From Agaribacterium sp. ZY112 (GTDB lineage: Bacteria; Pseudomonadota; Gammaproteobacteria; Pseudomonadales; Cellvibrionaceae): 64,000 nt of DNA. The translations under genes and the position numbers were made by a program. The stretch's first letter is position 1. Every line of letters starts with the position of its first letter. Positions 27,565 to 47,105 of the stretch are shown here, piece after piece. The stretch lies in NCBI RefSeq assembly GCF_041346925.1, contig NZ_CP166840.1:372001-436000 (forward strand). The letters run 5' to 3'. Below the pieces are notes generated by a model. That model worked only from the letters and a program-made list of their open reading frames with translations. It did not search any database and had not been told where the DNA came from.

Positions 27565-28013
27565 CCTTGTTAAAGCATCCGCTCTAAACCGGTGCACTTT
27601 TGAACACCAAAGACCAGATATACATCTAATTTTCGGTGTTATAATTGTAACAACTTCAGTCCGATCTGGGAGAGTATTAGAAGTAAGGTGGTTAGCAAGT
27701 AAATGATGTGTCATGAGTGTTTTAAAAGCCCCATTCATCAGTGAGCCAGCTATGCATTATTTATATTCTACTTCTTACAAGTTGTAGTGAAAGTATTGAA
27801 AAGATATGCAAAGATGCATGGGATCAGGCTGGGTGAGTTTAAGTGATGGAGGTGAGTCTTCGCCGTCTAATCTTTTCTAGGATCTGCTATGTGAGCATGG
27901 TCTAGACCATTTCAGAAACTGTTGGTTAGTTTTGTACGACGTTTAATCAAGATAACCGCTTCAATAATAAGGCAATGGTAGCTGTGAGTAATTACAGGAA
28001 ACATTGCTAACAT
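27565..28013. other. Non-coding stretch between tnsE and cargo
   Basis: These 449 bp separate the transposition module from the convergent ApeA-like gene. A 14-bp perfect palindrome, ATGGTCTAGACCAT, lies at 27897-27910. No gene, terminator or known RNA is recognised. It marks the step from chromosome-like composition to AT-rich cargo. Confidence 0.5.
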
Positions 28014-29783: not shown

Positions 29784-29904
29784 TATTGATTCCGGGTTTA
29801 GTTTCTAGTGAATCACTGAATCAGTACGAAGCGGATATAACTTTCGGTTCTTTGCGAAGTATTGATTAACTGTGCCGAATTAAAGTTGCATGTGATAGGT
29901 AAAA

Positions 29905-30810
29905 TCAAATATTAGCTTCTAATTTTTTGGTAATAGTTTGTTTAAAAGAGTTGAATATTTTTTTGCAAATATCCTCGCTCCTCTCTTTATATCGCTCTTT
30001 GATTCTGTCTTTGCACCCTACCATGATGTTTTCGCACTCAAATTTTAACCCTAAATTTTTGCAAAAGTATTCAGTTTCTTTAGACATGACTTCAATAGTG
30101 CAAGCCAGATGAAGTAAACCGTGTTGAGAAGCTGAGTTCCATAAAAATTTTGGTGAGTATTGAAGCATTGCAATAGCCTTTGCTATTTTATGTAGCGCAG
30201 GGAGTGGGTTGACTGGAATATAGTCAAGTCTTGATGTTATGCGGTCGGGATACCTATACCATAAAAACTCATCTACAATAGAAAAGTCAATAAGGCTCTT
30301 TCTTGGAGTGAATGCATCTGAAGGTATGGAGCTTAGTTTTCCAGGAAGTTCGGTGTTTATAAAAACTCGAGCTCCCTTTCCGGATGACTCTAATTGAACT
30401 GCTTCAGTTGCGGCTCCTCCACATATAAACATCCCTAGTTTTGTGTTAATTTTATCAGGCTCTACAATCTGTCCATATGCTAGACCACCTCTACATAGAA
30501 TCCCTGCAAGGATGCATTCCCACATTAGCTCTCTTGCGGCATTAACGACTAAATTTGGATTTTCAGACCATATGAAGGCGCAATCGGATAATTGAGCTAC
30601 TTTTATTCCTTTATTTATTGCCGTTAGGCCTATAAGAACTCTTCTGAATTTAAGAAGTATTTTTGCACAGAAATGATGTTGAGAATGCTTGTCCTGAAAC
30701 TTGAATCGGTGAGCAGAATAATCCACATCTGAAATTCTGATTTCACCTTTCGTTAATGCTCCAACCCCAAGAATGTCTATAAAAAAAACTGCCCCGCTAT
30801 ATTCTTTCAA
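29905..30810 (-). CDS. Class III nucleotide cyclase-like protein
   Basis: This 301-residue protein resembles class III adenylate/guanylate cyclase-fold proteins. D12 in FFIDILG and D76 in QLSDCAFIW sit where the two metal-binding aspartates are expected. RGGLAYG (about 107-113) and the block GGAATEAVQLESSGKGARVFI (split here as GGAATEAVQLESS and GKGARVFI) follow the family layout. Similar single-domain cyclase-like proteins occur in defence islands, including the Pycsar group. No Pycsar-type TIR or transmembrane effector is adjacent. It starts 55 bp after TcmP-1. It may be a signal-making enzyme, or an inactive relative. Confidence 0.45.
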   Translation of the reverse strand: MKEYSGAVFFIDILGVGALTKGEIRISDVDYSAHRFKFQDKHSQHHFCAKILLKFRRVLIGLTAINKGIKVAQLSDCAFIWSENPNLVVNAARELMWECILAGILCRGGLAYGQIVEPDKINTKLGMFICGGAATEAVQLESSGKGARVFINTELPGKLSSIPSDAFTPRKSLIDFSIVDEFLWYRYPDRITSRLDYIPVNPLPALHKIAKAIAMLQYSPKFLWNSASQHGLLHLACTIEVMSKETEYFCKNLGLKFECENIMVGCKDRIKERYKERSEDICKKIFNSFKQTITKKLEANI

Positions 30811-30865
30811 TGTTCCCTCGACGTCACTTATTAGTCTATCTTTTTTTATAAGGAGATTGCTATAG

Positions 30866-32146
30866 CTAGATAAAAAGCTGGCTTTGTTTGTAGGTTAGGG
30901 TGTCTTTATTATTTATTCTAGTAGATTTGCATCTGCGCTCGCCCTTGCATCCTCTAACTTCAATTTCACCTTGATCTATTGCGGTTTGTAGTGCCTCCTT
31001 TATCTCGCTTGATGATGCTGGAGTGAGGCTTCCATATTGGTCAAGAAGGTCGCTAAAGATGATTGGCCCTGAAGTATCGTAGATTATTTTAGGTATTTCT
31101 GTACTTAGTTTGTCTATACATCGTTTTTTGGTTTCATCTGATAGTATTTTATGGTCTGAAAATTCAAATGAACTCTGACCTGGCGTTTCGTAGGCCCTAT
31201 AACCAATCTGGAAGAACCCCTCATTGAGGTAATGTGAAAACTCCATCGTGTCATTTGCATGATCCCAGTGAATCTTCATCATTACATCACGTGCGATATA
31301 TTTTTTCGATAAGTGTACTAACCAATATGGAGATGAATCCCCTCGTTTCCCACTGATAAAAAATAGGGTCATGTGTGGTGCGCCAGATGCAGCTTTTATT
31401 GCTGCCGCTAGCTGTTCTTGAATTAATGAGTGCCAATGTCCAGTGTCTTTCCACTCCTGAATTCGATCCCAGGCAATATGAGATTCTAGGTTAATGTTTC
31501 TCATGCTGGTTCTCATATTCTGTGTATTTGAGATGTATCGCTGTAATGAATCGTAATTAAATGTGAGTATTACTTCAGGATCAGTTAGTTCATTGAAAAT
31601 AGACGCAACTGAATTAAGGGGAACATCTTTGTAGGCATATTGATCAAGCAAAAATATTGCTCGTTGTGTGCGGGGATTTTTTCTTATGATTTGTTTAATT
31701 ATGCCGGGTAAGGATCGATGAAACTCATTGTTGTGACAGTGAATTGTTGACCCTAAAGCGCTGTTGAATGTAGAATTTTTTATTTCATGGGTTAGGTAGT
31801 TAGTACTTTCAAGGGATTTCTCAACGAAATAAAAATTACAGTTTATCGTTCTGGTTTTTTTCCTCTCGATATTGACTCGTACAATAGCTTCTTCAAGTGT
31901 TTTTAGTGCGAGAAAGGGGGAGCCGTCAACCATACTTCCAGTATGCAGATCTATATATTTACCACCTCCAGCAAACCCATCAACCAAGTGCAAGTCCAGT
32001 CTTTCAATTTGGACACGCTGAAAATAGATGTCGATATACTGCTTTAGGTATGTTGTTGTAATTTTATGTTTTGTTTGGCTGTGCTCATCCAGACTTGGCG
32101 GTGGGGAGCCTATTTGCCATTGATATTTATCTTCTTGCGTCCCCAT
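30866..32146 (-). CDS. tcmP: Three-Cys-motif partner protein (TcmP), copy 1
   Basis: This 426-residue protein has the TcmP opening: KHKITTTYLKQYIDIYF, then DLHLVDGFAGGGKY with a Rossmann/methyltransferase-like glycine loop at residues 56-62, and the GSPFLALKTLEEA block. The C-terminal part looks like a winged-helix domain. TcmP proteins are found beside three-Cys-motif (DUF5131/Gp37-Gp68) proteins, here encoded 90 bp upstream on the same strand. The biochemical role is not established. A second, diverged copy lies at 33404-34507. Confidence 0.8.
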   Translation of the reverse strand: MGTQEDKYQWQIGSPPPSLDEHSQTKHKITTTYLKQYIDIYFQRVQIERLDLHLVDGFAGGGKYIDLHTGSMVDGSPFLALKTLEEAIVRVNIERKKTRTINCNFYFVEKSLESTNYLTHEIKNSTFNSALGSTIHCHNNEFHRSLPGIIKQIIRKNPRTQRAIFLLDQYAYKDVPLNSVASIFNELTDPEVILTFNYDSLQRYISNTQNMRTSMRNINLESHIAWDRIQEWKDTGHWHSLIQEQLAAAIKAASGAPHMTLFFISGKRGDSSPYWLVHLSKKYIARDVMMKIHWDHANDTMEFSHYLNEGFFQIGYRAYETPGQSSFEFSDHKILSDETKKRCIDKLSTEIPKIIYDTSGPIIFSDLLDQYGSLTPASSSEIKEALQTAIDQGEIEVRGCKGERRCKSTRINNKDTLTYKQSQLFI

Positions 32147-32236
32147 TATAATTCCCTTTACTTTGTATGGTTGTTTATCCTGCCATGAAAGGTATGTGAA
32201 TCCAAGTAGTAAACGTGTAATTTAAAGTCTCATTTG

Positions 32237-32980
32237 TCATAGGTTGATAGCAGGTATCATGTCCCATGTAACACCTTCTAATAATCGACCATTCGCAGCT
32301 TTGGATCTTTTAATACCATCCTGCCCCCAAGCCCCCCACTGCTTAAAGAAAAAATCTACATTTTTAGAGTCACACTGATCGCGTAATTGAAGAACCCACT
32401 TTTTTTCCATGGGTCTTGCCTTTTTCCCTGATTCACCGCCGACAATAACCCAGTGGATGCCTTTGAGGCGTATTTGCCCTAGCTCTTCAAGTAACGGTTC
32501 AATTGATAAGAACCGTGTTTTTGCTTTTATTGCTTGTAGCTCAGCGATACGAGGTCGGCCGTATTTTCTATCTTCCACTGAGACACCAAGCCAAGCATTG
32601 TCAGGAACTCTTCTAGACTCGAAATACTCCCTCATCCGTCCTGCTCTTTTTGTAAGTATTTGGTATACGTGCTGGGGGGTTTGGTTGATGGTTTTCATGA
32701 CTCTATCAATGAAGCTGAAGGGGACTTTTTCATGGAAAAGGTCGCTCATAGAATTCACAAAATACATTGTTGGTTTTTTACGAGATAAGGGTTGCTGAAG
32801 CCTATCTTCCATTAAGGAGATTTTAGAGAAACCGCCCTCATACCCTACTGTACCCATGGCCTGAAGTCTCTTAGCCATTGTCTCTGCGTAACAGTGTTTG
32901 CAGCCTGGTGATACCTTAGTGCAGCCTGTTACGGGATTCCAGGTTTGTTCTGTCCATTCGATTTTACTTTTTGTGGCCAT
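32237..32980 (-). CDS. Three-Cys-motif DUF5131 (phage Gp37/Gp68-like) protein
   Basis: This 247-residue protein begins KIEWTEQTWNPVTGCTKVSPGC and continues KHCYAE, giving Cys20, Cys27 and Cys30, the cluster-type motif that names the family and resembles a radical-SAM-like site. Further family blocks are NSMSDLFHEKVPF and HWVIVGGESG. It is the cognate partner type of TcmP. It is divergent from the small HTH gene at 33085 and shares the control region at 33000-33084. Function unknown; RNA modification has been suggested for related proteins but is not shown. Confidence 0.85.
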   Translation of the reverse strand: MATKSKIEWTEQTWNPVTGCTKVSPGCKHCYAETMAKRLQAMGTVGYEGGFSKISLMEDRLQQPLSRKKPTMYFVNSMSDLFHEKVPFSFIDRVMKTINQTPQHVYQILTKRAGRMREYFESRRVPDNAWLGVSVEDRKYGRPRIAELQAIKAKTRFLSIEPLLEELGQIRLKGIHWVIVGGESGKKARPMEKKWVLQLRDQCDSKNVDFFFKQWGAWGQDGIKRSKAANGRLLEGVTWDMIPAINL

Positions 32981-33020
32981 CAGACTTTCCTGTATAGGTA
33001 TACATACATCTTAATGAGTT

Positions 33021-33083
33021 TTGACAGGTAAAACTATATCAAATAGTATTCGTATATTCTACATTAAGCGAATATACGAATAC
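33021..33083 (+). promoter_or_regulatory. Promoter with perfect inverted-repeat operator for the HTH gene
   Basis: TTGACA (33021-33026) and TAGTAT (33044-33049) are separated by exactly 17 bp. A perfect 14-bp inverted repeat, GTATTCGTATATTC / GAATATACGAATAC, occupies 33046-33059 and 33070-33083, overlapping the -10 element and ending 1 bp before the GTG start. This is the expected layout for autorepression by the HTH protein. It also lies between the divergent DUF5131 and HTH genes, so both may be controlled. Confidence 0.7.
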
Positions 33084-33084
33084 A

Positions 33085-33402
33085 GTGATCGATAAAAGCG
33101 CCTTGCAATCTGCTGTTAAAAAGCATTTGAGCGAGAAATCTATCCGGCAGGAAGATTTAGCAAAAGATTCGGGTGTAAGTCAGGCTGTGGTCTCAAGGGC
33201 ATTTAGGGCCGACTGGAAACACTATAGCCCCAAGCTCCGCCGCCTTGGTGAGCATGTTTGCGTAGAGCGCAGCACTGCAGACCCAAGAGAAAGCAAGATG
33301 TTGATGGATGCTTTGGGGCGCTTATGGGATGGCACTCCAGAAAGAGAGAAATTGCTGGCAGAATTATTATTAAATGTAGGTCAGCTTTGGGAGGCGGGGT
33401 AG
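33085..33402 (+). CDS. Small HTH regulator between the TcmP genes
   Basis: This 105-residue protein has an N-terminal helix-turn-helix (RQEDLAKDSGVSQAVVSRAFR, written in two parts RQEDLAKDSGVSQ and AVVSRAFR) and a helical C-terminus ending LLAELLLNVGQLWEAG. The start is GTG with a very short leader. It is the only plus-strand gene in this block and sits inside the two-TcmP/DUF5131 locus with a perfect inverted repeat at its promoter. It is probably the repressor of this locus. Confidence 0.75.
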   Translation: MIDKSALQSAVKKHLSEKSIRQEDLAKDSGVSQAVVSRAFRADWKHYSPKLRRLGEHVCVERSTADPRESKMLMDALGRLWDGTPEREKLLAELLLNVGQLWEAG

Positions 33403-33403
33403 A

Positions 33404-34507
33404 TCACTCGATCATTATTAGGCAGTCGTCGGGGTACGTTAATGCTCTACGTGGTTTGTTTAGTGTTCGTTTTACTGATACAGCTAGCTCGCCTTTATTT
33501 TCAATAACTTTGAGCCCATTTGCCTTCACGTGCCCTCGATGAAACTCTGTTGAATCTGAGTCAATATACTCCAATATCTCCTTGATGCTAACGAAGCCTC
33601 TATCTTTAAGGTAGGAAATTAAAATTTCTTGAAGCGGCTCAAAATTGGGTTTTTCTATATTTATATTTAGCTGCGGGTTGTTTTCAGAGCGGAATGCAAA
33701 ATCTCCCTTTGGCACAACCTTCCATATGGCCTCCTTTATTTTTTGGCTTCCGAGTATATTTTGAGTAGCAAAGAAAACTCCGTATTTTAGTTTATTGCCA
33801 TTATATAGATCGAAATGAACTACCTGCTTAGCGCAGCTTTCTTTTAGCTTGTTTTTATAAAGCTTATAGAGCTCTTTTTTTCTAGCCTCTTTATCATCTA
33901 TCTGTGAGTGCTTCTGCCAATCAGTGCAGCCAAACAACATGTTAAGAGAGGACTCAAATTCTGGCTGTTTTTTAAACCTATTAATAAATTCGTACATGAG
34001 AGATATATACACCTCTGTGCGAGGGAATGACATTATTTTTGTTATAGCGTTGAGCGGGGTTTGGTTTACTCCGAAAGGGTCTATCATGATAAAGCAAGGA
34101 TTCCCCAAGAGGCCCTCTTGAGCTGGAATGATATGTTTATCGGTTGCCTTTTCAAAGGTCTCACAAAAGAAATCTATTCGTATATTTGGGGGTATGTCAT
34201 CTATTTCTGCAAAGACTTTCGCTTGTAGATGTTCTAGACGGGCTTTATCACAATCGATAAATATGTAGCGTATTTTTGTTGATTGAACTTTACTGTGAGT
34301 GTGCTCAATGACAGCCTTTAATGCAACCAATGGAGAGCCGTCTTCACCAGTTTTATATTCCCCAGGGCCCGCAAACCCATCAACAAAAAGCAATTGGTCA
34401 AATCTGTTGGATAGTATCCCGAACCAAGCATTTAAATAAACTCTTAACACAAGATGCTTTCCGGCTGTGTGGCCATCCATTGGCCATAGTTTTCGTTTTG
34501 TTGGCAT
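33404..34507 (-). CDS. tcmP: Three-Cys-motif partner protein (TcmP), copy 2
   Basis: This 367-residue protein shares the family opening with copy 1: GKHLVLRVYLNAWFG, FVDGFAGPGEYKTGEDGSPL (loop at residues 43-49) and LVALKAVIEH. It then has FIMIDPFGVNQTPL. The C-terminal 70 residues resemble a winged helix. It ends 2 bp from the end of the HTH gene (convergent). The two TcmP copies differ in length and much of their sequence, so they are paralogues, not a recent duplication. Only one three-Cys-motif partner is present. Confidence 0.8.
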   Translation of the reverse strand: MPTKRKLWPMDGHTAGKHLVLRVYLNAWFGILSNRFDQLLFVDGFAGPGEYKTGEDGSPLVALKAVIEHTHSKVQSTKIRYIFIDCDKARLEHLQAKVFAEIDDIPPNIRIDFFCETFEKATDKHIIPAQEGLLGNPCFIMIDPFGVNQTPLNAITKIMSFPRTEVYISLMYEFINRFKKQPEFESSLNMLFGCTDWQKHSQIDDKEARKKELYKLYKNKLKESCAKQVVHFDLYNGNKLKYGVFFATQNILGSQKIKEAIWKVVPKGDFAFRSENNPQLNINIEKPNFEPLQEILISYLKDRGFVSIKEILEYIDSDSTEFHRGHVKANGLKVIENKGELAVSVKRTLNKPRRALTYPDDCLIMIE

Positions 34508-34722
34508 TTTTATATTATTGATTAAGTTTTATGCAAAAAATAATTATTTAAGCTGAAGCCACTAGGGAGCAGGGAGCGCCCTCCTCAGCTTCTTTAAGTT
34601 GCAGTAAGAGCAAGAACAAAATGATTTATATTCACACTCTTTCGACGTACGTTGACAATGCACTTTAAGACGTGCCTACAGGATACAAAGTTTATACATT
34701 AAAACATAATTATCACAATAAT

Positions 34723-37700
34723 TTAGAGTTCAACTAATACATTCTCACAAGTTGAATCTAAAATTGCTTTTGGGTTTTGTTCAAAATCATGTCTATCTTT
34801 TGCGTAGAAAGATACACATTTTGTTAAATAATCGCTTAGCTTTCTATCAGTGATATACTTGCTAGACTTAATCACTTCAGTTTCTCGACCACTAAGCGCC
34901 TCATGTAAAAAATAAGTCCAGATCCCATGCCTCAACTCATCGCAAGAATAAGAACTTTGTCCTGGCTGGCAAGATAGAAATGTAGCAAAATGAGGGTGGT
35001 CACTTTTAAACAATTGAAAGTCGTCACCATCTAAATCTGATATCAATGCTCTTTCTCCATCATCTTTAAAACTTTTAGCGCAAGCATCGATAAATACCAA
35101 GCCAGATTTACATTTCGAATTCAACAAGGGGTCAAGTAAAATCTTACGCAGAGAAACTGCTGTTTCAGCTACATTATTAATATGAGTATCATATGTTGAA
35201 AGATAATTTGTCGTACCGTTATGAAACCCATGTCCAACGTAATAAAAAACCAGACGATCATTCTCTGATAAAGAATGAAATAGACCACTTAACCCATATT
35301 CCAAATCACTCTTCAGTGCGTTTTCATTAATATACATATAGATATCATTTTCATCAACTTCAAACTGCTTAAGAAGTATTTCTTTAAATAATAAGGCATC
35401 TTCTTCTGCATACTTTACAGACTGAACTTGGCCGGACCCTCTCGGCTTGTAATTTTCGATTCCAATAATAATAGCTACGGTTTTTTCGTAACCTGAAACA
35501 GCTAAAGATTCTATAGCACAAGAAAAATCATCGCCCTCAACTCTTGTTTGGCAGCCGTCCCTAATATATTTTTGACCTCTAATTAGCAACTCTTCATTTG
35601 ACTTTTTGACCTTAATGATAAAAATACGTTTCCCCCCTAGATCAACCCAATTGTAAGTAATGGCTGGTAACGGAGAAATCATCTTCATAGCTTCCCTTGT
35701 GATCTCATCCATTCTAAAATCCGTACTCAAACCTAAAAGCTGATTCTCAGTTCCATTTTTGGTTATGCCATACACCAACTCTCCGCCTTCAGTATTAGCA
35801 AATGAAGAAATAGTCTGAGCAATTTTGTATGGAGATGAAGGAACTGGATCAAATTCAAAATCAACTGTTTTCTTCTTTTTGACAAATTCTTCGAATTCTT
35901 GGTCTTCAAACTTAAAGTTTGCTATCGGAATTCTATTAATTTTGGTCATCCTCAACAGATGGCCAATCGTTACTCTTTGAGGTACATTCGTACCATCCAC
36001 ACACCAAAACTCAGAATCAACATATTCAAGAACATCAAATTCTGAAGTGTAATATAGAAGTACCGCATCATTATCTGATGGCCGAGCAACGACGGTTATA
36101 TCTCTCCCATTCTTAGTTACACCACCAATGATACTAGGGGCTATTTCGTAGTGATTTGCGCAGTCATATTCATGCAGTTTATCTAAAAATTCAATAACAC
36201 GACTCACAGCCCTTGAGATCAACCCCTCTACAAATACGAGCTTTTGATAATCAGAAGTAGAAATATGAAAAAAGTCCGGTGATGTACCATTACTAATAGC
36301 CGTTTTAACTTCATCAAAAGTTTTAACCACTTTGTCCGAAGATTGTATTTTTGTACTATAAAACTCATTGATGATTTTATCATCTCTTAAGGTGACATCT
36401 ACCGGAAAAGCAATACTCTCTTGCTCAAAGCACTCTTTAATTTCACAAGTTTCAGAGCGCAAAAGAAAGGTAAGTTTTTTATCATGCCCAATCAAACCAA
36501 AGTATCGACAAAGTACGCTAGGAAGTTGCAGAAATACCTTATTACTCTCCCATGGTTTAGTTACAAATAGCTTGCTCCCATCAAGGTGAACATTGACGCT
36601 CTTAGAAAAACCTAGATCTTTATATGTTATTTGAATCGCTTCTGCTTCATAAATACCCAACAAAGAAAACCTATCATCCAGCAATTTTAATGAGGTTAAA
36701 GTGTCAGGGTCATCATTTTCATTCTCAACCCAAGCCTTAAAGAATGGAAGCGAGCTTTCTAGTCTTGCAATGAGCTCCTTCCCATCTTCACTTTTATAGG
36801 ATTCAAGCCTAAAATCACTCTGCCGTAGAATGGTGATCTTAAATGCATTCAGAAACACAACAATATTGCTATGTTGTTTATTCTCAGCACCAATATTTAA
36901 AAACTCATAATACCCCTGAAATACTGCATCATTACCATCTATGAAATATTTTGTAGACGTACATTTTGAAAACTGATTTTTAGTATTCAGTAGTAGTCCT
37001 GAACAAGACCATTCCGAAATAACCTCTAGATCCATCTCCCCCCAATTACCACTCAAATCCAATAGCTGCCTGTATATTAATTGAACCCTATTAATGTTAC
37101 TTTCTTTAACCTTTTCATTTACTGATAAATCAGAAGATATTTCACTAAGCAACTCTAAGTAGTCTGACAGCTCAAGCTTAGATCTAAATTTAAAAAATGA
37201 TCTCCAATCGTCAGATAACTCAACACCGTCAAAAACAGGCAAGTATTCGCCAGCTAAATCTTTTATTTCATCTGTATTGAGTAATACTTCAGATGAGCGT
37301 TTGCACTCTTTCGTTGCTACAGGTATTACACATAAGCTCTTAATAACCCATTGGGTATAGTTTTCTACTAAATCTCCTGTAGTTCGGCCTAGTTTTCTAG
37401 AATTACCCCAAAATGTTGTGGCAGGACTTGAGAGTTCTGAAGAAGAGTGGTTATTGATTACGTCGTGCCAGTATTGTTTCGATAATGGATGATTATTTAT
37501 GGTTTGGTGGATGAAGCGTAGAACTATGAGATTTTTATATTCATCACCAGTAAAAGTTGATAGGAAAGGCTTGAATTTTTTGTCATCTTCGTTGAAGTAG
37601 CCCTCTCTAAATCCATTAGCTACTAATACGGTCTTACATGACTTTTTTTCATGAGTGACCAAAGATATGCCATCAGACACCTTTAAGAACTTAAAAAATC

Positions 37701-39765
37701 TTTTCCATTCATCTTTATCCCTGGAATTGTCCATGTACATTTTGCTTACAAAAACGTCTTCTCCTAATACGGACTCAATCTCTAAGCGAGGAGAATAGGA
37801 ACTAGAAAGAATGCATTTCTTTGCAGCTACAAGGCTCCCGTTGTTTGTAAGTAGCTTCAAATCAGAGAGCTGGGCGAGTATATTTGAATTAAGTTCGTCT
37901 TTTTTATATAGATTGAAGAGGTCTCGTATTGCTTGGATAGCATTTTTTCTATTTATATAGATTTCTGAGTTTGGGATTATTGTTTTAGTAATGAAGCTGA
38001 CATCAGTTTTTTCAACAACACCGAGCTGCTCTATCCATGCCCTCATATCTGGGACTGATGAGATCCATTTTTGTATATCTATATGTAAGAATGCTAGCTC
38101 ACCGCCTGGATCATCCCAGTTGTTGTCATCTGCAGTAGGGAAATATATTTCTGTTGGTTTGTTTAACCTATTTCTATGGTCGAAAATAAATGGCAGCCCC
38201 CTAAGAATTTCATCTGACACTCCGCCAATTGAATCATTTAAAGACAATGATTTTAAGTGCTTTATTAGTTCTATGTTTTTATTTATCGAATGAAGGCAGG
38301 AAAAGCTCTTAGACTTTAATAGCTTAGGTAAGTCTTTCCATTCAAAGCTTTCAGCTCCTAGTGATTTTATTCGACCTCCAAACCCATGATTTATCATAAA
38401 GTACTTAGAGTGGATCACTCTTGCACCGTCAAGATCACTTAAAGCCTTTTTTATTGATTTTTCGCCAACAAATTGTTTCTCAGACAGATATGTAAAGTCA
38501 ACAATAGTGTCCGAGACTTTTACTAAACCGTCGTTTTTTGTTAAAACAAATTCCACAGTATTTATGGCATCATTGACGCCTTCATTAAAGTGCCGGCCCA
38601 GTTCGTCAGCTATCACTTCTCGTGGGATTAATCTATAAGCTTGGAACTTTTCTTCACCTACTACCAGTATTGATATCCATTTAAATATCTCAATCGCAAT
38701 ATTTTTAAACAACCATTGATTCCATTTAGAATCGACATGAAGATGCTCACGGTTTGCATTGGTCAAAAAGCTAGTGTTTACCAGTACGGGAAATTGATAT
38801 TTTGTTTCGTCTGTAGGCAAATAGGAATATATTAATTTTTCACTTGCTTCCAGTTCCGCAACACCATCTTCACCAATTTTTGCAGCTAAAGTTAGCTCAA
38901 TATTATTAGCAGTCAACAATTTTTCTGGTATATTTCTTTCATATTCTAGATCAGAAGTAAGCTCTGGCGGGACATCAAGAACTATTGTATTTACCAACCA
39001 CCTTGCAACAACCTCCCCATTGGTTATTAACTTGACACCACTATTTTCCGATCGATTTATTTCTATTTTGTAGAGTCCATTTACTTCAAAATTTATTTCA
39101 TCAATATTCTTTAAAAAAAGGAACATATCAACATTTTCTGAAAGTTCCTGTACCGCTTGAAATGTACCTCTAGTGTCATCTAGCTTTATTATTGTGGCAA
39201 CCTTAGCATTTATGGATTGGAGATATTGATGAATTGGAGTTAAAACATCCCCATGTTCCGTATATATAGGTATTATCTGCCAAGGGGGAATGAATTCACG
39301 GTTATTGTTTCTCTCCCAATCTTCTTTTTTTTCACCCCATTGCCAAGTAAAAGGAAAGAACGAATCAAATCTAAAATATTCATCGTTTGTGTAAACTGTG
39401 ACCTCTTTAGACTGACCAAATACTGACTTAAACCCGATGCCTTTATAGCCGGTTTTGCTGGCATCACCTTTCTTTGTACCATTGTTTACATTACACAGAC
39501 CTCTTACGTCCCTTTCATTAAAAGCTTTACCTGAGTGGGCTACAATTAATGTCTCACCAATTCTTTTTATCCAAACTTTTACCGTCGAGCCCTGCTCTGG
39601 TGAGTCGTCAGCATTCTGTAAAAGTTCATAGATAAACCGCTTAGAATCAGTATATAAATCTGTTGATAGTGCTTCCAGAGAACTAGCTTGGTTTGTAGCT
39701 TGATCAGGAGTCGTATAGTTTGTATTGTCGTAGAACAATTTTTCAACAACATTTTTTATAGACAT
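34723..39765 (-). CDS. Sacsin-like GHKL ATPase / AlbA_2 / caspase-like fusion protein
   Basis: This is a 1680-residue single frame. The N-terminus is a GHKL ATPase of sacsin type: FIYELLQNADD (residues 44-54) supplies the Glu/Asn of the N box, and GYKGIGFKSVF (106-116) the glycine lid. A long middle part (about 250-1290) has no recognised family. Residues about 1291-1405 look like a Schlafen AlbA_2 domain (ISSFANTEGGELVYGI, QKYIRDGCQTR). The last 254 residues are a caspase-like C14 protease (VAIIIGIENY; YYVGHGF with His1512; VFIDACAKS with Cys1562, 50 residues apart). Sensor-NTPase plus protease suggests an abortive defence protein. The function is inferred from domains only. Confidence 0.8.
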   Translation of the reverse strand: MSIKNVVEKLFYDNTNYTTPDQATNQASSLEALSTDLYTDSKRFIYELLQNADDSPEQGSTVKVWIKRIGETLIVAHSGKAFNERDVRGLCNVNNGTKKGDASKTGYKGIGFKSVFGQSKEVTVYTNDEYFRFDSFFPFTWQWGEKKEDWERNNNREFIPPWQIIPIYTEHGDVLTPIHQYLQSINAKVATIIKLDDTRGTFQAVQELSENVDMFLFLKNIDEINFEVNGLYKIEINRSENSGVKLITNGEVVARWLVNTIVLDVPPELTSDLEYERNIPEKLLTANNIELTLAAKIGEDGVAELEASEKLIYSYLPTDETKYQFPVLVNTSFLTNANREHLHVDSKWNQWLFKNIAIEIFKWISILVVGEEKFQAYRLIPREVIADELGRHFNEGVNDAINTVEFVLTKNDGLVKVSDTIVDFTYLSEKQFVGEKSIKKALSDLDGARVIHSKYFMINHGFGGRIKSLGAESFEWKDLPKLLKSKSFSCLHSINKNIELIKHLKSLSLNDSIGGVSDEILRGLPFIFDHRNRLNKPTEIYFPTADDNNWDDPGGELAFLHIDIQKWISSVPDMRAWIEQLGVVEKTDVSFITKTIIPNSEIYINRKNAIQAIRDLFNLYKKDELNSNILAQLSDLKLLTNNGSLVAAKKCILSSSYSPRLEIESVLGEDVFVSKMYMDNSRDKDEWKRFFKFLKVSDGISLVTHEKKSCKTVLVANGFREGYFNEDDKKFKPFLSTFTGDEYKNLIVLRFIHQTINNHPLSKQYWHDVINNHSSSELSSPATTFWGNSRKLGRTTGDLVENYTQWVIKSLCVIPVATKECKRSSEVLLNTDEIKDLAGEYLPVFDGVELSDDWRSFFKFRSKLELSDYLELLSEISSDLSVNEKVKESNINRVQLIYRQLLDLSGNWGEMDLEVISEWSCSGLLLNTKNQFSKCTSTKYFIDGNDAVFQGYYEFLNIGAENKQHSNIVVFLNAFKITILRQSDFRLESYKSEDGKELIARLESSLPFFKAWVENENDDPDTLTSLKLLDDRFSLLGIYEAEAIQITYKDLGFSKSVNVHLDGSKLFVTKPWESNKVFLQLPSVLCRYFGLIGHDKKLTFLLRSETCEIKECFEQESIAFPVDVTLRDDKIINEFYSTKIQSSDKVVKTFDEVKTAISNGTSPDFFHISTSDYQKLVFVEGLISRAVSRVIEFLDKLHEYDCANHYEIAPSIIGGVTKNGRDITVVARPSDNDAVLLYYTSEFDVLEYVDSEFWCVDGTNVPQRVTIGHLLRMTKINRIPIANFKFEDQEFEEFVKKKKTVDFEFDPVPSSPYKIAQTISSFANTEGGELVYGITKNGTENQLLGLSTDFRMDEITREAMKMISPLPAITYNWVDLGGKRIFIIKVKKSNEELLIRGQKYIRDGCQTRVEGDDFSCAIESLAVSGYEKTVAIIIGIENYKPRGSGQVQSVKYAEEDALLFKEILLKQFEVDENDIYMYINENALKSDLEYGLSGLFHSLSENDRLVFYYVGHGFHNGTTNYLSTYDTHINNVAETAVSLRKILLDPLLNSKCKSGLVFIDACAKSFKDDGERALISDLDGDDFQLFKSDHPHFATFLSCQPGQSSYSCDELRHGIWTYFLHEALSGRETEVIKSSKYITDRKLSDYLTKCVSFYAKDRHDFEQNPKAILDSTCENVLVEL

Positions 39766-40019
39766 ATTAGATCCTAGAAAAAGAGGTTAAGTAAAACGTT
39801 GCGCATTTATCGACACATTAATCAGCCATGAAGGCTACTTCCAACGTTTGTTTTGGGTCGAATAGTGCCCATAGAAACCAGCAATATTAAGTACAAAGGG
39901 CATAACACAGAGGAGCTATAATGCTTTATCTTACCCACATTCCAAACAGACATACACCCTTGAACAAAGGCAAGCTAGTGTACCAAAAACCACCTCTAAA
40001 GCTTAAGGTGCTCTGTGCC
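39766..40019. other. Upstream region of the fusion-protein gene
   Basis: This 254-bp AT-rich non-coding stretch must hold the promoter of the large minus-strand gene. No clear -35/-10 pair or operator was recognised. Confidence 0.4.
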
Positions 40020-40539
40020 ATCCGTATCTGCCTCAAGCTAGCTAAAAAGTCATAGATTTGGCTCTATTTAACCTGACCTTCGACAGTAAGCTTCAGAGTT
40101 ACGACACGATAAAGCTCCAGATAAGAGATTTCACACATGGCAACCAAATATCAAACATTCCATAGTTCTCCACCAAAAAATGTAGCAGACGGTACAATTC
40201 GAAATCACAGAGTAACCACGTAACAAACAGAGGGAATGGATCGATAAATCCGGGCAAAAAAGAGACGATTACCTATTTAAAAACCCAGTTAGTAACTCCC
40301 TCATATCACCACTTGCCATTATCCTCATCTTGTAGAAATGTGGATTACGGAGATCGGGCTCAATCCTACTGAATACTGAACTCACTCATTGAGGTGTGCA
40401 CCAAAGCTACGCTGATATACCGACGCACAAAGAACTTACGTGCCATTCAGATACAGCTCAGGCCACTAAGCTCGAAACCACAGCTCGTTACTTGGGAATA
40501 GAAGTGGATGATGCGCTAGAGTTGGCAGAGAATGCTTAA
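40020..40539 (+). pseudogene. Degenerate tyrosine recombinase (phage-type integrase) relic
   Basis: Fragments in shifting plus-strand frames together follow one integrase: DLALFNLTFDSKLQSYDTIKL then QIRDFTHGNQ near 40055-40145; TVQFEITE near 40190; a frame with DDYLFKNPVSNSL near 40255-40300; LIYRRTKNLRAIQIQL near 40411-40460; and, after another shift, TKLETTARYLGIEVDDALELAENA ending at the stop 40537-40539. The Arg (RRTKNL) and the Tyr (ARYLGIE) of the active site are still visible. At least three frameshifts and internal stops make it inactive. It marks an earlier acquisition now inside the Tn7-like element. Confidence 0.75.
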
Positions 40540-40986
40540 GTGTGATTTCAGTCTGACTGGTATACGCCTAGAAATAGACGATAACCGGCCACAAGCGGCA
40601 CTCCATCAATTGGAAACGTGTGCTAGGTTTTCACACCGTCTGCACGATAGACGGACATACCCCCACTGAATACAAGCAATTCAATTAACTTCAGATGTGG
40701 ATTCGAGATTTTCTGTTTGGCTCACGATGCATTTCCCATGAATCGCCTTAATTACTTTTTAAACTTCTCTAGTTGACCTACGACCCTGTTGGCATTCTCT
40801 ACCGAAGTATGACTTTTTAATTTTGACTGGGGCGCCACTAGATTGGAGATCAATGTACTCTCGCTGCGAGAGAAGCCTCGTGTTCTTTATTGGCTCCGGT
40901 TTCGTGTGCGCTATTTTGTTTTTCATAGATAATGCGAATCTTAACTTTTGGGCTACATGATTAAAACTCAGACTTCCAGTCAATGC
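40540..40986. other. Gene-poor stretch after the integrase relic
   Basis: These 447 bp hold no gene I can support. A 74-codon minus-strand frame at 40759-40983 shows no recognisable motif or clear ribosome site. It is probably decayed junction sequence. Confidence 0.4.
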
Positions 40987-41562
40987 CTAAGACTCAAAAG
41001 ATGTTAAGTCTTTGTTGAAAGTTAACCCTGTTAACTCGGTACTCTCGATTAAAGTTTTGAACGTATCCGAGCAATACATAATTCCGCGCTGGGTATAATC
41101 AGTGGTAAACACCAATTGATCACTCTCTACACCCTCTTTAAAGTGTATTTCACTGACATCAAAATACACGCCGGATTCAAACGATGCTTTACTTCGGCAG
41201 TGATCGACATCAACAACATTTAGGCAATTAAATACATGCCAAGGAGTACCGTCGATTGTTATAGGCAGAAATTCACCATAGGGGGTAAGTATTCCATTTA
41301 AGGCCTCGTAGGCTTTCTCAGAAAGAACTAACCAGCGGCTACGATCCCATACAGCAATATCTGGTGTAATATTTTCATCTGAAATCGAATCCATCCATGT
41401 TGCGGAGCAGTCACTCCACTTTCCATCAAAGCTACCGCCTTTAGTTGTTATTACTTCGAACTCATCCCAGTCCATGTATCGTTCGACTGAATCAAATAGA
41501 TCAAGCTCGCTCAGGTCGAACTGTTTGTATGCTTCAGAGTTGAAGTGTATTCGATAGATCAT
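40987..41562 (-). CDS. Probable immunity protein for the AHH toxin (Imm43/DUF1629-like)
   Basis: This 191-residue acidic soluble protein has no signal. Its start overlaps the stop of the AHH nuclease gene by 4 bp (ATGA type), the usual toxin-then-immunity order. Segments such as WLVLSEKAYEALNGIL and HVFNCLNVVDVDHCRS resemble the DUF1629/Imm43 immunity group often paired with HNH-type toxins. It should bind and neutralise the nuclease in the cytoplasm. The pairing is supported by overlap and order; the family name is less certain. Confidence 0.65.
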   Translation of the reverse strand: MIYRIHFNSEAYKQFDLSELDLFDSVERYMDWDEFEVITTKGGSFDGKWSDCSATWMDSISDENITPDIAVWDRSRWLVLSEKAYEALNGILTPYGEFLPITIDGTPWHVFNCLNVVDVDHCRSKASFESGVYFDVSEIHFKEGVESDQLVFTTDYTQRGIMYCSDTFKTLIESTELTGLTFNKDLTSFES

Positions 41563-42317
41563 GGTGCTAACCCGAATTTTTTATTGTAGGCATCTGTAGT
41601 TACACTCAAAGGTTGTCGGCCATACTTAAGCTCATTTCGAATGAAAATTAGTTTATTCCGGATATGTTGTTCTGAAGGTTGGCCTATCACTTCATCTCTA
41701 ACCCATTCTTCATATTTCTTAGTATGAATTCTACTATGAGGAGGGCATTTCGGCATTGCCCAATGACCTCGGTCATCATCAGTCATTGGCATCCAAACAC
41801 CATTATCTGGGTCATTTATACGTATATTGTATTTCGCTAGGTGTAACCTAACCCTCTTAGTATCAGCCAGCTTACCCTTTCCCTCAACAATGTGGTGTGC
41901 ACTATAACGTGGACTAGGCTGAGCTCGTCCCGCGAGTCGCAAATTTGTTTCAAGGGTATCGGTTGGGTGGTGAGCTTCTTTGTCCATCGCCCTCAGTTTC
42001 TGAGGTGTCTTAAGGTCACTAAATTCATTGCGGTAGTTCTCTAATTGCTCTTCCACAGATACTAGCGCCATTAAGCGACTGAATTCGCGATCTAGCTGAC
42101 TCTTTGCAGTCTTTAGCTCACCTAGACGGCTTTTTCGTTGCGCCTCAGTTTCATTCTCAGGCTTTGCCTTCCGGCAGTAAAAGTCCTTACATTTTCTCTC
42201 GTATTCGTAAATTGACAGATCTAGGGGAGATAGCTCCCAGACCTCCGGAGTTACTCGCCTACCGTGATCGTATTCCATTTTCCACATGTCCTTTGCATTA
42301 CATACGTTATTTTTCAT
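41559..42317 (-). CDS. AHH-type HNH/endonuclease VII-fold toxin
   Basis: In this 252-residue protein, residues 135-215 carry the AHH nuclease signature: PRYSAHHIVEG (A140-H141-H142), NDPDNGVWMPMTDD (Asn and Gly of the HNH core) and HSRIHTKKYEEW (His195, His198). The first 110 residues are charged and helical, coiled-coil-like. There is no signal peptide and no recognisable delivery domain (VgrG, PAAR, Rhs). It could be an orphan cassette carrying the toxic tip of a polymorphic toxin, a T6SS cargo effector, or a defence nuclease. The immunity-like gene follows directly. Confidence 0.75.
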   Translation of the reverse strand: MKNNVCNAKDMWKMEYDHGRRVTPEVWELSPLDLSIYEYERKCKDFYCRKAKPENETEAQRKSRLGELKTAKSQLDREFSRLMALVSVEEQLENYRNEFSDLKTPQKLRAMDKEAHHPTDTLETNLRLAGRAQPSPRYSAHHIVEGKGKLADTKRVRLHLAKYNIRINDPDNGVWMPMTDDDRGHWAMPKCPPHSRIHTKKYEEWVRDEVIGQPSEQHIRNKLIFIRNELKYGRQPLSVTTDAYNKKFGLAP

Positions 42318-42649
42318 TCTTTATTGTTAATTGTCGAGGATCTCCCATGCTTTTCATTTCACTATTTATCAGCTACATGTGGTACTTCAAAAAATATATG
42401 AATATAGATCCGATAAACCTTTATCTCTAACGCAAAATAGGCGCCATTTACAACGGTAATTGGAAATGGATATTGAGAATCACTAGCATCTCCCCCCTTA
42501 ACGCTATCGACTAACCATTTGATCAATCGACTAGAGGAATGCGTGACAGTTTTGACTCATGCTACGCTTATAATATGCGTGAAAAGTATTGATTACTATG
42601 CTTTCAAATCTTTATTAAAGATCAATCCAGATGTTTTATTGAGGATGAT
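42318..42649. other. Divergent intergenic region
   Basis: These 332 bp lie between the AHH toxin (minus) and the small zinc-ribbon gene (plus). A TATAAT box is at 42569-42574, with only weakly placed -35 candidates. No operator or RNA is recognised. Confidence 0.35.
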
Positions 42650-42928
42650 ATGAAATTAATACTGTGTAGAGATTGTGGTGACGTTGTTAAGCTGATGCAC
42701 AACCCAAGACAATGCTTTTGTAGCGCGTCTGGAGGTAGATATACAGGAGTTACTGGAAATGCCGAAGTCTGGGGGCCGATCATTCCTATAGGTTTTCATA
42801 ACACCAGCTTCTCCACCGCTTTAGAAAACCAACCAGAAAGCGGTCTTGGTAGGGATTTTGTTGCTTTCGTGATACCCAAGGAATGTGATTCCGTTAAGTC
42901 TATTGGGGAGGGAAATCCTAAATCATAA
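42650..42928 (+). CDS. Small CxxC zinc-ribbon-like protein
   Basis: This 92-residue protein begins MKLILCRDCGDVVKL and has CFC at about residues 23-25, giving a CxxC...CxC arrangement that could bind one zinc. The remainder is Gly-rich with no motif I recognise. Similar small proteins of this opening occur scattered in bacterial accessory regions. It lies 86 bp upstream of the csrA-like gene in the same direction. Function unknown. Confidence 0.55.
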   Translation: MKLILCRDCGDVVKLMHNPRQCFCSASGGRYTGVTGNAEVWGPIIPIGFHNTSFSTALENQPESGLGRDFVAFVIPKECDSVKSIGEGNPKS

Positions 42929-43014
42929 TTAGTATTCTGTTTTGAAGCCCTATTTACCCCAGGTTCAACTATATTAAACTAATCGTAACCTAAACAAGCC
43001 GCAAGGACGCACGC

Positions 43015-43200
43015 ATGTTAACTCTAACCCGAAAACCCTATATCGAAGACTCCTCGGAAGATAGCTCTCAAATTGAGCTTCATACTAATAATGGGCTCGT
43101 TGTTATTGAACTCCTTAGTTCAAAAAACGGGCAAGCCAAGATAGGTATTGATGCACCAGAATCGGTGCTAATTCTAAGGTCTGAACTAGCTGGCAGTTAA
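43015..43200 (+). CDS. CsrA/RsmA-family RNA-binding protein, transposon-borne
   Basis: This 61-residue protein has the CsrA frame: MLTLTRKPY at the start (canonical MLILTRR), VVIELLSSKNGQAKIGIDAPESVLILRSEL in the core (matching the G-Q-V-R-I-G-I-x-A-P block, with A-K in place of V-R), and a short tail. The GID-AP core and the first strand are kept; the second strand region is unusual (EDSSEDSSQIELH). An AAGGA site precedes the ATG. CsrA controls translation by binding GGA in leaders. A copy on a mobile element could modulate cargo or host genes. Confidence 0.8.
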   Translation: MLTLTRKPYIEDSSEDSSQIELHTNNGLVVIELLSSKNGQAKIGIDAPESVLILRSELAGS

Positions 43201-43599
43201 TATTGTAAAAGGGCGATGTCAGGCCGACATATAGAGGACTTAAAACATCGATAGGCGCTAAATCCTACCATTAATGTAGTGTTTAAAAGGGCTTTTTATA
43301 TGTTTTCTCAAGCTTATGCTTTAACGTAAGGTGTAGTAGCTCAGATTTGGCCTGAACTACTACACGTAAGACCCAGTTCAAAAGCATGTCCACTTAGTGA
43401 AGTGCCGTGTAAGCTGGTTGAATAGCATCTTGAGCCACCACTTTGGTAGCCCAGCCTCCTCTTTAAGCAATCGATAAGCCTTCTTTATAGCCTTAGGATT
43501 GCTATAGTCTTTTCAGGCTGCCTCTACTGATCCCCCTGACGGCGAAAGCAATAAAAGTTAACTTGGAAGGCCTTTATAATACTCCTAAGCCACCTTTAA
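43201..43599. other. Intergenic region with a long imperfect hairpin
   Basis: This 399-bp stretch has no gene. At 43331-43365 it holds a hairpin with 14-bp arms and one mismatch (GTGTAGTAGCTCAG / CTGAACTACTACAC, 7-nt loop). No T run follows on either side, so it is not an obvious terminator. The remainder shows nothing I recognise. Confidence 0.5.
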
Positions 43600-44058
43600 T
43601 CACTCAAAAATTCCCGCAGATCTTTTAAGCTTCAGAATTAAATATTCCTCGAAGTTATTTGCTGCTCTTTGCAGATCACCGTCAAATGGGTCAAAGGAAT
43701 AGACCACGCCAGAATTATTGTCCAAGATTTCCCACCATTCATTACTTTCATTAATAAGCACTAAATAGTTGTGACCTAAATTAGGATGAAGCTTACGAAA
43801 TGCCAGGGTCTCTCCTAGGACAGTTCCTTCTGCATCTGATTTAGGGTTTCCAGCCTCAATTCCGCAGTAAGCGGTATTCGAAATAAGGAGGCTTCCATAT
43901 GTCTGTAAAAACCACTTGTAATCATCAACAAAACTTAGATTCAAGGAGCCTTCAACAAACGTAATATCTTCAAGATCTGTAATCGGTGCCCCATAATCAA
44001 TCCCCAATCCATCGCTGGCCACATCTTGTAGTAATTTATCAAATGTTATTTTATTCAA
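43600..44058 (-). CDS. SMI1/KNR4 (SUKH)-family immunity-like protein
   Basis: This 152-residue protein has the SUKH pattern: an N-terminal helix, LNLSFVDDYKWFLQTYGSLLI, an acidic middle, then NYLVLINESNEWWEILDNNSGVVYSFDP with the conserved tryptophans and aspartates, and FEEYLILKL at the end. SUKH proteins neutralise diverse nuclease and deaminase toxins. No toxin gene is adjacent. It overlaps the 3' end of the broken glycosylase-like gene by 8 bp. It is an orphan antitoxin, or a decoy immunity protein against incoming toxins. Confidence 0.75.
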   Translation of the reverse strand: MNKITFDKLLQDVASDGLGIDYGAPITDLEDITFVEGSLNLSFVDDYKWFLQTYGSLLISNTAYCGIEAGNPKSDAEGTVLGETLAFRKLHPNLGHNYLVLINESNEWWEILDNNSGVVYSFDPFDGDLQRAANNFEEYLILKLKRSAGIFE

Positions 44059-44585
44059 GTTCTAAAGCCCTTTGTTTCGCCTTCATTGCCATTTCTACAA
44101 TAGCGCAAAGTGCATAATAGCTCATAGCGCTTGATGATCTATTAGATGGATGCCAGAAGTTTACATATATGATTTTATTAGAAACATATGCGCGGTCACT
44201 AACTTTGACTTTATTAACAAGCTTGTTACAAATTAATGGCCACGTTTTTCCGCACACAACTATTTGAGGGGCAATGCTATTGATCTGTCAACTAATAAGA
44301 CCCCAATCTTCATCGACGTATTTCATAAGATCTTTCTGACTAGAAGATTTTGCGCCACTGCTTTTTTTGAGATTAACAATTGATGATGAAAGCAGAGCTT
44401 TTTCAACATCATCATTATTCTCCACAAATGATGTAGGTAGGCCTCGTTTCTTAAAGGACTTAGGCGCCAACGCAATCCAGTAGGATTCGCCCTGGAAATG
44501 ATTACGCGAAGCACCGAGATAACCAAGATCATGCACAGTGGCTGCTGGACAGCCATTCGGATGCTTAAGCGACTCACCGAAACCC
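44051..44585 (-). pseudogene. Uracil-DNA-glycosylase-like gene, broken by one TGA and truncated
   Basis: One minus-strand frame runs from about 44585 to 44051, interrupted only by a TGA at 44290-44288. It reads ...KYVDEDWGLIS, stop, QINSIAPQIVVCGKTW... The combined protein matches a UDG-superfamily-like layout: NHFQGESYWIALAPK, SIVNLKKSSGAKSSS, QIVVCGKTW and a late YVNFWHPSNR. The N-terminus is cut at an in-frame stop near 44585, next to IS-derived sequence. A single change such as CGA to TGA would explain the inner stop. The two halves could be mis-annotated as separate genes of 82 and 68 residues. Confidence 0.65.
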
Positions 44586-45024
44586 TAAAATAACTTGAAC
44601 ACTTAAGCTACATCAAGCTATCCTCGGCACATAGTCATTTTCGACCAACCGAAAAAATGCCAACCACACGTGACTTATTAATGGGGTACGCCCTCAGCGT
44701 GTGGCTCTGGCACCCTCTTCAAGCTCGTTACCAATGAAATTGCAGCCCTGATCGATGCCGGCTTTACAAAACAAAAGCTAAGCAGTCGCGAACACCCAGA
44801 CCCAGCTACGGCTAATCACATCATCGATCTCGTTAATAAAGTAAAAGCACCCCCATTCTTACGCGTAAGCGTCTATATCGAGTGTTTTACTATGATACAC
44901 CACCATTTAAAAAGTCTCTTTCACGCCAAGGGTCTGAAAAACTACATCGGGGATGCATGGCGCCTGCTTGGGCTTAGAGTTGGCATACAAGAGGTAGAAA
45001 CGGGTTCAGATGGATGGGGCACTA
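44586..45024. other. Junk/junction sequence between glycosylase relic and IS3 remnant
   Basis: The stretch contains short open pieces with no recognised family (for example a frame encoding TNEIAALIDAGFTKQKLSS). It also has a near inverted repeat CCACACG / CGTGTGG around 44662-44703. No intact gene is supported. It looks like debris from successive insertions. Confidence 0.4.
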
Positions 45025-45299
45025 AGAAGCACTATCGCAAGCTGATGGCGAGTTATAGTATACGAGCTAGCATGGGTGACGTAGGCGCGTGTTGGGATAA
45101 TGCGGTAGTGGAAAGGCTCTTCGGGAGCCTCAAGTATGATTGGCTATTGAAAGTGCCACAGCTCACAAGAGAGCACATGAAAAACGATGTCGCAGCTTAT
45201 ATGCGATATTACAATTTAGACAGGCTGCATACCGCTAACAACGATATGTCGCCAATTACCTATGAAAATTCCTTTAGGAAAGTGTCCGGTTTAACTTGA
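45025..45299 (+). pseudogene. IS3-family transposase OrfB, C-terminal remnant
   Basis: The last 90 residues of a 135-codon frame (open from 44892) match the end of an IS3-family DDE transposase: YRKLMASYSIRASMGDVGAC, then WDNAVVERLFGSLKYDWLL (third catalytic Glu) and YMRYYNLDRLHTANNDMSP. The first two catalytic aspartates and orfA are missing, and the upstream 45 codons are unrelated, so it is a dead fragment fused to other sequence. Confidence 0.8.
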
Positions 45300-45402
45300 G
45301 CAGAACACTCCAAGCATTTTCCATTTTTTTGTCAGGTTTCGTAGTTACATTTTCCGATTGTCGTACTATTTTAAGGTGTACCCTACAAAACTTGCGTTAA
45401 GT

Positions 45403-46662: not shown

Positions 46663-46664
46663 AA

Positions 46665-47105
46665 CTATACCTGCATCGTGTTCTTGATCACCCAAATCAC
46701 AATGCCTTCGATAATGGTATCAAGGTCTTCGGTAATGGGTATGGGAGGAAAGCTAGAGTTTGCCGCCAGTAAGCGCTGTTGCTTTAAGTCGAGTTGTTTG
46801 CAGGTTAATTCACCGCATACACTGACAATTGCTATAGCGCCTTGAACATAGGGCTGAGCTCTATCCACCACTAATAGATCGCCGTCGTTTATGCCCGCGC
46901 CATGCATAGACTCCCCCTCGGCCCGCGCAAAGAAGGTCGATGCTGGGTGCTTAATCAGGTACTCCGAGAGATTGAGTGTCTCTTCACTAAAGTCATCTGC
47001 AGGCGAAGGAAAGCCACAGGGTACTTTTGAGCTGTACAGGGCATAGCGGTGAAGCTTGGTATTAGGCTCTTCTGGGATAAGATCGTGGGCGATGAAAACA
47101 GGCAT
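46665..47105 (-). CDS. umuD: SOS mutagenesis protein UmuD
   Basis: This 146-residue LexA/S24 protease-fold protein starts at 47105 (MPVFIAHD); the frame extends to 47159 but would run through the LexA box. The self-cleavage site is Cys-Gly in KVPCGFPSPADD. The catalytic Ser is in EGESMHGAGI and the Lys in CGELTCKQLD. RecA-stimulated cleavage makes UmuD', which joins UmuC to form Pol V. E. coli UmuD is 139 aa. Confidence 0.95.
   Translation of the reverse strand: MPVFIAHDLIPEEPNTKLHRYALYSSKVPCGFPSPADDFSEETLNLSEYLIKHPASTFFARAEGESMHGAGINDGDLLVVDRAQPYVQGAIAIVSVCGELTCKQLDLKQQRLLAANSSFPPIPITEDLDTIIEGIVIWVIKNTMQV

Follow-up and report, generated by a model that had tools for sequence, protein, structure and literature searches.

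A Tn7-borne gene of Agaribacterium sp. ZY112 encodes a predicted sacsin/Hsp90-type ATPase joined to AlbA_2 and caspase-like domains, in a family whose C-terminal part varies

A 64,000-nucleotide stretch of the Agaribacterium sp. ZY112 chromosome (hereafter, the window) was found to contain a gene for a 1680-residue protein in which a sacsin/Hsp90-like sensor is followed by a linker module, a SLFN AlbA_2 domain, and a caspase-like domain (Table 1). Comparison of the sequences of its close relatives revealed a constant sensor and, behind AlbA_2, a part that differs from one relative to another. The sensor family is present in PADLOC and caspases are known from other conflict systems; this modularity is the new finding. 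We consider it probable (roughly two chances in three) that the gene encodes a single-protein, abortive-infection-type defence system with interchangeable effectors, which is spread by a Tn7-like element.

Table 1. Features of the window discussed in the text (position 1 is the first letter of the window).
Feature	Residues	Positions	Strand	Basis or remark
Gene of the sacsin/Hsp90-like – AlbA_2 – caspase protein	1680 residues	34723..39765	minus	Start 39765, stop 34723; open frame and translation
Sacsin/Hsp90-type ATP-binding domain (predicted)	1-240	39046..39765	minus	
Hsp90 middle-domain-like segment	241-410	38536..39045	minus	
Conserved central region, proposed recognition part	about 411-1115	36421..38535	minus	PADLOC TmtA coverage, 12/12 aligned rows
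Linker module	1165-1285	35911..36273	minus	Terminates the sensor protein in split relatives L006, L010, and L011
SLFN AlbA_2 domain, proposed effector-side adaptor	1291-1408	35542..35895	minus	Pfam and Foldseek
C14 caspase-like protease (predicted)	1425-1680	34726..35493	minus	Pfam, fold, invariant dyad
Complete Tn7-like element		19666..47615		27,950 bp; the gene is cargo; TACGA duplicated on both outer sides
TnsA, TnsB-like (Mu-transpos_C), TnsC-like (AAA_22/TniB), TnsD/TniQ, and TnsE genes		19774..27564	plus	Pfam
Chromosomal glutamine amidotransferase and SIS-domain gene (GlmS-like)		17814..19640	plus	Pfam

The gene is present in one copy in the 4.28-Mb, one-contig genome, and its G+C content is 35.8% versus 44.5–44.7% in the flanks. 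The single uninterrupted frame that an initial annotation, made from the sequence alone, had described is indeed open; its strand was corrected to minus, the plus strand of the same interval being packed with stops. Immediately upstream of the gene lies a 1.2-kb stretch (39766–40986) without any ORF of 100 amino acids or more. An Rfam scan of positions 27500–47700 revealed no RNA family at gathering score. Between positions 34450 and 41000, there are 20 promoter-like sites (21.0 in shuffled sequences) and seven terminator-like sites (3.2 in shuffled sequences, sd 2.0).

The N-terminal part was matched by Pfam SACS (residues 38–134, 1.3e-8, above the curated cut-off) and by the NCBIfam sacsin N-terminal ATP-binding-like domain (residues 42–125, 2.1e-23). 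Two AlphaFold models were of medium quality (mean pLDDT, 73 and 62; pTM, 0.48 and 0.45), and Foldseek TM-scores over these multi-domain models were low (query-normalised 0.29 or less). The closest solved fold to the N-terminal domain was the SR1 domain of sacsin, with Hsp90 also among the best matches. The Hsp90 match continued into the middle domain, to about residue 408. Residues E47, N51, and D54, and G106, G109, and G111 of the ATP site, which we take to be those of the N-box and of the glycine-rich box, respectively, are invariant in 12 of the 12 aligned rows. Together, the sacsin profiles, the fold matches, and the ATP-site residues bear out the GHKL sensor-type ATPase initially assigned to the N-terminus. 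We conclude that this part is a predicted GHKL ATPase of the sacsin/Hsp90 type, a prediction supported by both sequence and fold, and that it may hydrolyse ATP.

Residues 1–1165 were matched by the PADLOC candidate-defence family TmtA (model PDLC03972, 1.3e-284, 945.8 bits, profile positions 1–1145 of 1302), and thus the sensor is already catalogued, in entries that carry no description. This match does not extend to AlbA_2 or to the caspase. In the split relative L006, described below, profile positions 1–1299 are covered. The last part of PDLC03972 is also matched by three distant loci, L046, L051, and L055, whose EVK-type C-termini are unlike the linker module, and thus the tail of the profile may stand for another C-terminal domain than that of L006. 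In the literature searched, which was without most subscription papers and all bioRxiv preprints, no paper was found on TmtA when the name was paired with a further term, nor on the combination of sacsin, AlbA_2, and caspase. The initial annotation held that some 1000 central residues match nothing recognisable; this stands, as regards fold, for residues of about 411–1115, but not for those up to about 408, over which the fold match to the Hsp90 middle domain extends, and the TmtA profile matches up to residue 1165. Residues from about 411 to 1115 may form the recognition part. About five internal repeats suspected there by eye received no support from HHalign of the units or from a sliding scan; the sole high HHalign value (r4/r5) spans 11 columns in which the two segments chosen overlapped.

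At the other end of the protein, Pfam Peptidase_C14 was matched at residues 1429–1628 (4.1e-12, above the curated cut-off), and a PADLOC caspase model gave 1.2e-9. H1512 (in GHG) and C1562 (in DAC) are invariant in all eight caspase-bearing sequences, as are acidic residues D1456 and D1560. The His1512/Cys1562 caspase site proposed at the outset is therefore found where it was placed, within a C14 profile match and a caspase fold, and the C-terminus is, with good support from sequence and fold matches, a caspase fold of the C14 type with an intact catalytic dyad, that is, a predicted protease. D1456 and D1560 are presumably the acidic residues of the S1 pocket; by the metacaspase/MALT1 rule, Arg or Lys would then be the residue preceding the cleavage site. 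Among plasmids, the closest caspase found outside the family (36.5% identical) is encoded by an Agrobacterium plasmid alongside genes for a pPIWI-associated nuclease, AbiE, and a DNA methylase; at positions 7078–9500 of L062, an Agrobacterium plasmid locus, a predicted pPIWI-associating nuclease gene overlaps a caspase gene, and the two are clustered with genes for AbiE and a methylase.

Caspase components are carried by the bacterial conflict systems EACC1-caspase and vWA-MoxR-VMAP (Kaur et al. 2020, PMC7159879, available part). They resemble the present family in using a caspase-superfamily peptidase as an exchangeable component, but the caspase described here missed the cut-off of the EACC1-associated model (NCBIfam NF047832) with 38 bits versus 140, and the available part of PMC7159879 contains no occurrence of sacsin, Hsp90, or AlbA.

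AlbA_2 domains are named after a nucleic-acid-binding fold. The domain itself was recovered by Pfam (SLFN_AlbA_2, residues 1303–1408, 2.3e-12, 47.9 bits versus a cut-off of 25.3) and by Foldseek, which matched DIP2311 (3lmm) and SLFN13 (5yd0). Thus, the AlbA_2 module of the initial annotation stands, whereas the nucleic-acid contact ascribed to it follows from the name. The RNase of SLFN13 needs E205, E210, and D248 (PMC5862951, in the part available). In the AlbA_2 domains of the caspase branch, no conserved acidic pair could be seen before the FANT-GG motif. This gives no support to an RNase role, the test being a weak one in that SLFN13 residues 205–210 lie outside the alignments. The available part of PMC12839542 cites a preprint on phage defence by bacterial Schlafens. 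The linker module in front of AlbA_2 was considered as a divergent NOV_C/DUF3883 nuclease domain, a reading that HHalign did not support, since no match to an alignment of two NOV_C sequences was obtained.

To find relatives, genome contigs of 84,980 species were scanned; with an exact-pattern first step, the counts are lower bounds, and comprise at least 27 pattern matches, of which at least 12 encode relatives. Seven of these (L002, L003, L004, L005, L007, L008, and L013), from Pseudomonadota, Myxococcota, and Bacillota, share the domain order from end to end, and so homologues with the three-part order of the initial annotation do exist. Since they span the full length with 47–68% identity in the best segments, the long frame is not due to chance. 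Among the 13 close members, including the protein from the window, the part behind AlbA_2 is a caspase in eight, a retron-type TOPRIM in one, and a domain left unassigned in a separate overlapping gene in two; in another, a separate gene of this kind encodes a domain with weak similarity to LmuA, and one member is truncated.

The exchanged parts are as follows. In L009, the sensor and AlbA_2 are kept, and the last 235 residues match PADLOC RT-Toprim_I-C at 4.7e-32; against NCBIfam retron Ec67, the same C-terminus scored 1.6e-5, far under the whole-protein cut-off. In L010 and L011, the sensor protein ends at the linker module, and the next gene, which overlaps it by ATGA, opens with AlbA_2 and continues into another C-terminal domain. 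The gene boundary falls between the linker module and AlbA_2, and AlbA_2 is therefore on the polypeptide of the effector there. The sensor protein of L006 also ends at the linker module and is overlapped by the next gene, in this case by GTGA; the companion starts with a weak AlbA_2 (Pfam 4.3e-4, 21.2 bits versus a cut-off of 25.3), and its C-terminus weakly resembles that of Lamassu LmuA (7.6e-4). With this match and by eye, the L006 companion is tentatively a PD-(D/E)XK nuclease. No profile identified the companion effectors of L006 or of L010 and L011 at a convincing score. An RxxxxH motif is typical of HEPN domains; a HEPN domain tentatively suggested by eye in the L010/L011 companion (RHLFSH) was not confirmed by Pfam (L010), by PADLOC and NCBIfam (both), or by PDB and plasmid searches (L010). 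Retron TOPRIM domains are attached to a reverse transcriptase and LmuA works with an SMC-type partner, whereas here the TOPRIM and LmuA-like parts are downstream of a sacsin-like sensor and AlbA_2. In these sequences, AlbA_2 marks the joint: effectors differ behind it, and the gene splits in front of it. The linker module would then be the sensor-side half of the joint, and AlbA_2 the effector-side half.

Family alignments and a tree of the sensor (12 rows) were built from 11 of the 12 loci and the sequence from the window; L012, which is in several pieces and ends at a contig end, was left out. The sensor of L006 groups with those of L003 and L007, both of which bear a caspase (support 100/98), and shares 79 and 81% identity with them. 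The linker module of L006 is 45% identical to each of theirs, which are 81% identical to one another. A similar sensor with a divergent module is the pattern that recombination somewhere from about residue 1115 to about residue 1165 would leave, and, from these sequences, this exchange of effectors looks recent. At least two changes of the caspase label are forced by well-supported branches of the tree. At the strict level, effector labels were not more clustered than chance (34 of 500 shuffles were as low), which says nothing against effector exchange. At the L007 locus (6041–15058), a 690-aa gene and an LmuA gene (Lamassu LmuA, 1.3e-52) immediately precede the caspase-bearing relative, which begins 223 bp after the LmuA gene; the LmuA-type protein of this locus clusters with the companion protein of L006.

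In a more distant set of 32 loci with TmtA-type matches, 29 were matched by the sensor profiles of the family, and none was matched, even at E 10, by its linker-module, AlbA_2, or caspase profiles; companions may be missed in this set, in which flanks are short, many genes are cut, and a single gene is in some cases represented by two loci. The arrangement therefore seems to be confined to the subfamily, with the exception of a linker module on a Calothrix plasmid (L063, 2157–5363), where a 1068-aa sacsin-like protein (TmtA PDLC03967, 2.8e-153) ends in this module with no effector attached.

The distribution of the family is patchy. The full-length gene was found only in the genome studied here among 398 sampled from the phylum (any match at 1e-3 in 42) and among 100 sampled from the family (any match in three), the latter sample including three others of the same genus. 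The TmtA profile at 1e-20 was matched in 16 of 369 genomes of the class, and at 1e-30 in 6 of 398 genomes of the phylum of L003, 1 of 298 of that of L010, and 13 of 198 of that of L002, the genome at the centre of each sample being counted; none of 14 control genomes had a match. In phage records, the sole match was a short one to the sacsin domain; viral contigs gave two pattern matches that were not relatives, and E. coli genomes gave no match at the DNA level. Among plasmids, 28 records were matched, none with a place covering 80% of the query, and the same was true of 21 records matched with the C-terminal 391 residues as query.

Within the window, the gene is cargo of a Tn7-like element, as the initial annotation had it: both ends were mapped, the terminal inverted repeats match, a 5-bp duplication is present, and TnsABC and TniQ are encoded. 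The element begins 25 bp past the stop of the GlmS-like gene, a position like that of the classical Tn7 site. Its cargo also includes an ApeA-like protein with an ApeA N-terminal domain and an Apea-like HEPN (Pfam; 28014–29783), adjoined by a 301-aa gene without Pfam or PADLOC match; two TcmP-type genes (GMT-wHTH in one, TIGR04474 at 2.9e-50 in the other) flanking a DUF5131 gene, which form PADLOC candidate PDC-M30 (30866–34507; PDC-M30A 3.9e-50, PDC-M30B 7.9e-112); AHH nuclease, Imm11-like (22.0 bits, just below the cut-off of 22.1), and SUKH genes resembling toxin-immunity cassettes (40987–44058); and, near the far end, a UmuDC-like pair of S24 peptidase and IMS polymerase (45403–47159).

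The neighbours of relatives were compared with control DNA of the same genomes at 6 of the 12 loci, those with contigs long enough for a control, and in 6 of 12 control regions, using proteins of at least 150 aa and PADLOC at 1e-10. Eighty neighbouring proteins matched 151 profiles, versus 28 for 92 control proteins, in a comparison that counts profiles, not proteins; among both neighbour and control profiles, there are some to which housekeeping genes can also give a match. The 25 neighbour profiles listed, of the 151, include type I restriction, LmuA/LmuB, IetA/IetS, SspA, DndA, DrmD, and PDC-S01/S03; RmrA, mad2/3/8, subtilase, GlgB-type, AriA, capP, TIR-PNTD Argonaute-type, and PDC-S66 are among 25 of the 28 control profiles listed, the RmrA profiles being 14 with one member each, probably one protein. 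On this count of profiles, the six relatives lie in a defence-rich setting.

Several other explanations were weighed against that of a single-protein defence system. It is very unlikely that the protein works as part of a larger multi-gene system with its TcmP/DUF5131/TcmP neighbours instead of alone. The genes are on the same strand, with a gap of 215 bp, and match PDC-M30A and PDC-M30B, but in none of the 12 loci of relatives, in flanks of up to 10 kb (shorter for L002, L010, and L012), did an ORF cluster with the TcmP or DUF5131 proteins of the window when all were compared against all, which argues against such a system. A stress or protein-quality-control machine, in which the Hsp90/sacsin part would recognise misfolded host proteins and the caspase would remove them or stop growth, with defence at most a side effect, is unlikely: while sacsin SR1 and Hsp90, the best fold matches, belong to the chaperone family, and a chaperone role is ascribed to animal sacsin (PMC3710099, in the part available), the very patchy distribution, carriage by Tn7, defence-rich neighbours at the six loci tested, and a C-terminal part in L009 that is common to retrons point elsewhere.

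The protein could instead defend against plasmids or other mobile DNA, or serve the Tn7-like element in competition between elements, phages not being its target. Carriage on a mobile element beside AHH, Imm11-like, and SUKH genes, and the nucleic-acid-binding fold behind the name AlbA_2, would agree with this. We consider it quite unlikely, however, as the sensor is listed in PADLOC as a candidate for phage defence and, next to relatives, there are genes with matches to Lamassu, type I restriction, and IetAS profiles, although several of these systems also act on plasmids. Against the reading as a single-protein defence system, control DNA also matched 28 defence profiles, Hsp90-like proteins also do housekeeping, and the Tn7 cargo includes genes of other kinds (the UmuDC-like pair and the AHH/Imm11-like/SUKH genes).

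For a single-protein defence system, the anti-phage function, the trigger, and the protease target are what we infer, and the following sequence of events can be proposed. The Hsp90-like part would act as an ATP-driven clamp, and the central region would sense a phage product or damage caused by infection. Closing of the clamp, or assembly, would bring C-terminal caspase domains together and switch them on; other caspases and MALT1 are activated when their domains are brought together. AlbA_2 would couple the sensor to the effector, and may bind nucleic acid as a second signal. Once active, the protease would cut proteins after basic residues, and not after Asp, if D1456 and D1560 are read correctly, and would stop or kill the cell before the phage spreads.

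Animal sacsin, which combines Hsp90-like modules with a DnaJ domain, is described as a chaperone with a C-terminal HEPN domain, and sacsin-HEPN and sacsin-DEATH architectures, the latter in some paralogues, have been described (PMC3710099, available part); sacsin is mentioned for its HEPN domain only in the available part of PMC11077055. The N-terminal fold described here is closest to sacsin SR1, but animal sacsin has three Hsp90-like units versus the one found here, and HEPN in place of a caspase, while the present family is bacterial, mobile, and includes split variants. A broader and rather doubtful proposal is that the sacsin/Hsp90-type ATPase acts in bacteria as a pattern-recognition receptor, comparable to NLR/STAND proteins but with the fold of a chaperone, which would sense infection directly and fire exchangeable effectors (caspase, TOPRIM, and others) through the AlbA_2 joint, the animal HEPN and DEATH sacsins being descendants or parallels.

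If the reading as a defence system with interchangeable effectors is true, Hsp90/sacsin-type ATPases would, like STAND/NLR proteins, be immune sensors whose killing parts can be exchanged, and abortive infection by caspases would gain a one-gene form transferable to laboratory strains. Among close relatives, the exchange of effectors behind sensors that are 79–81% identical offers a natural experiment in which the constant part would be the one that senses and the changing part the one that kills. The immune-looking architectures of animal sacsins (HEPN and DEATH; PMC3710099, available part) would then be placed in a bacterial context.
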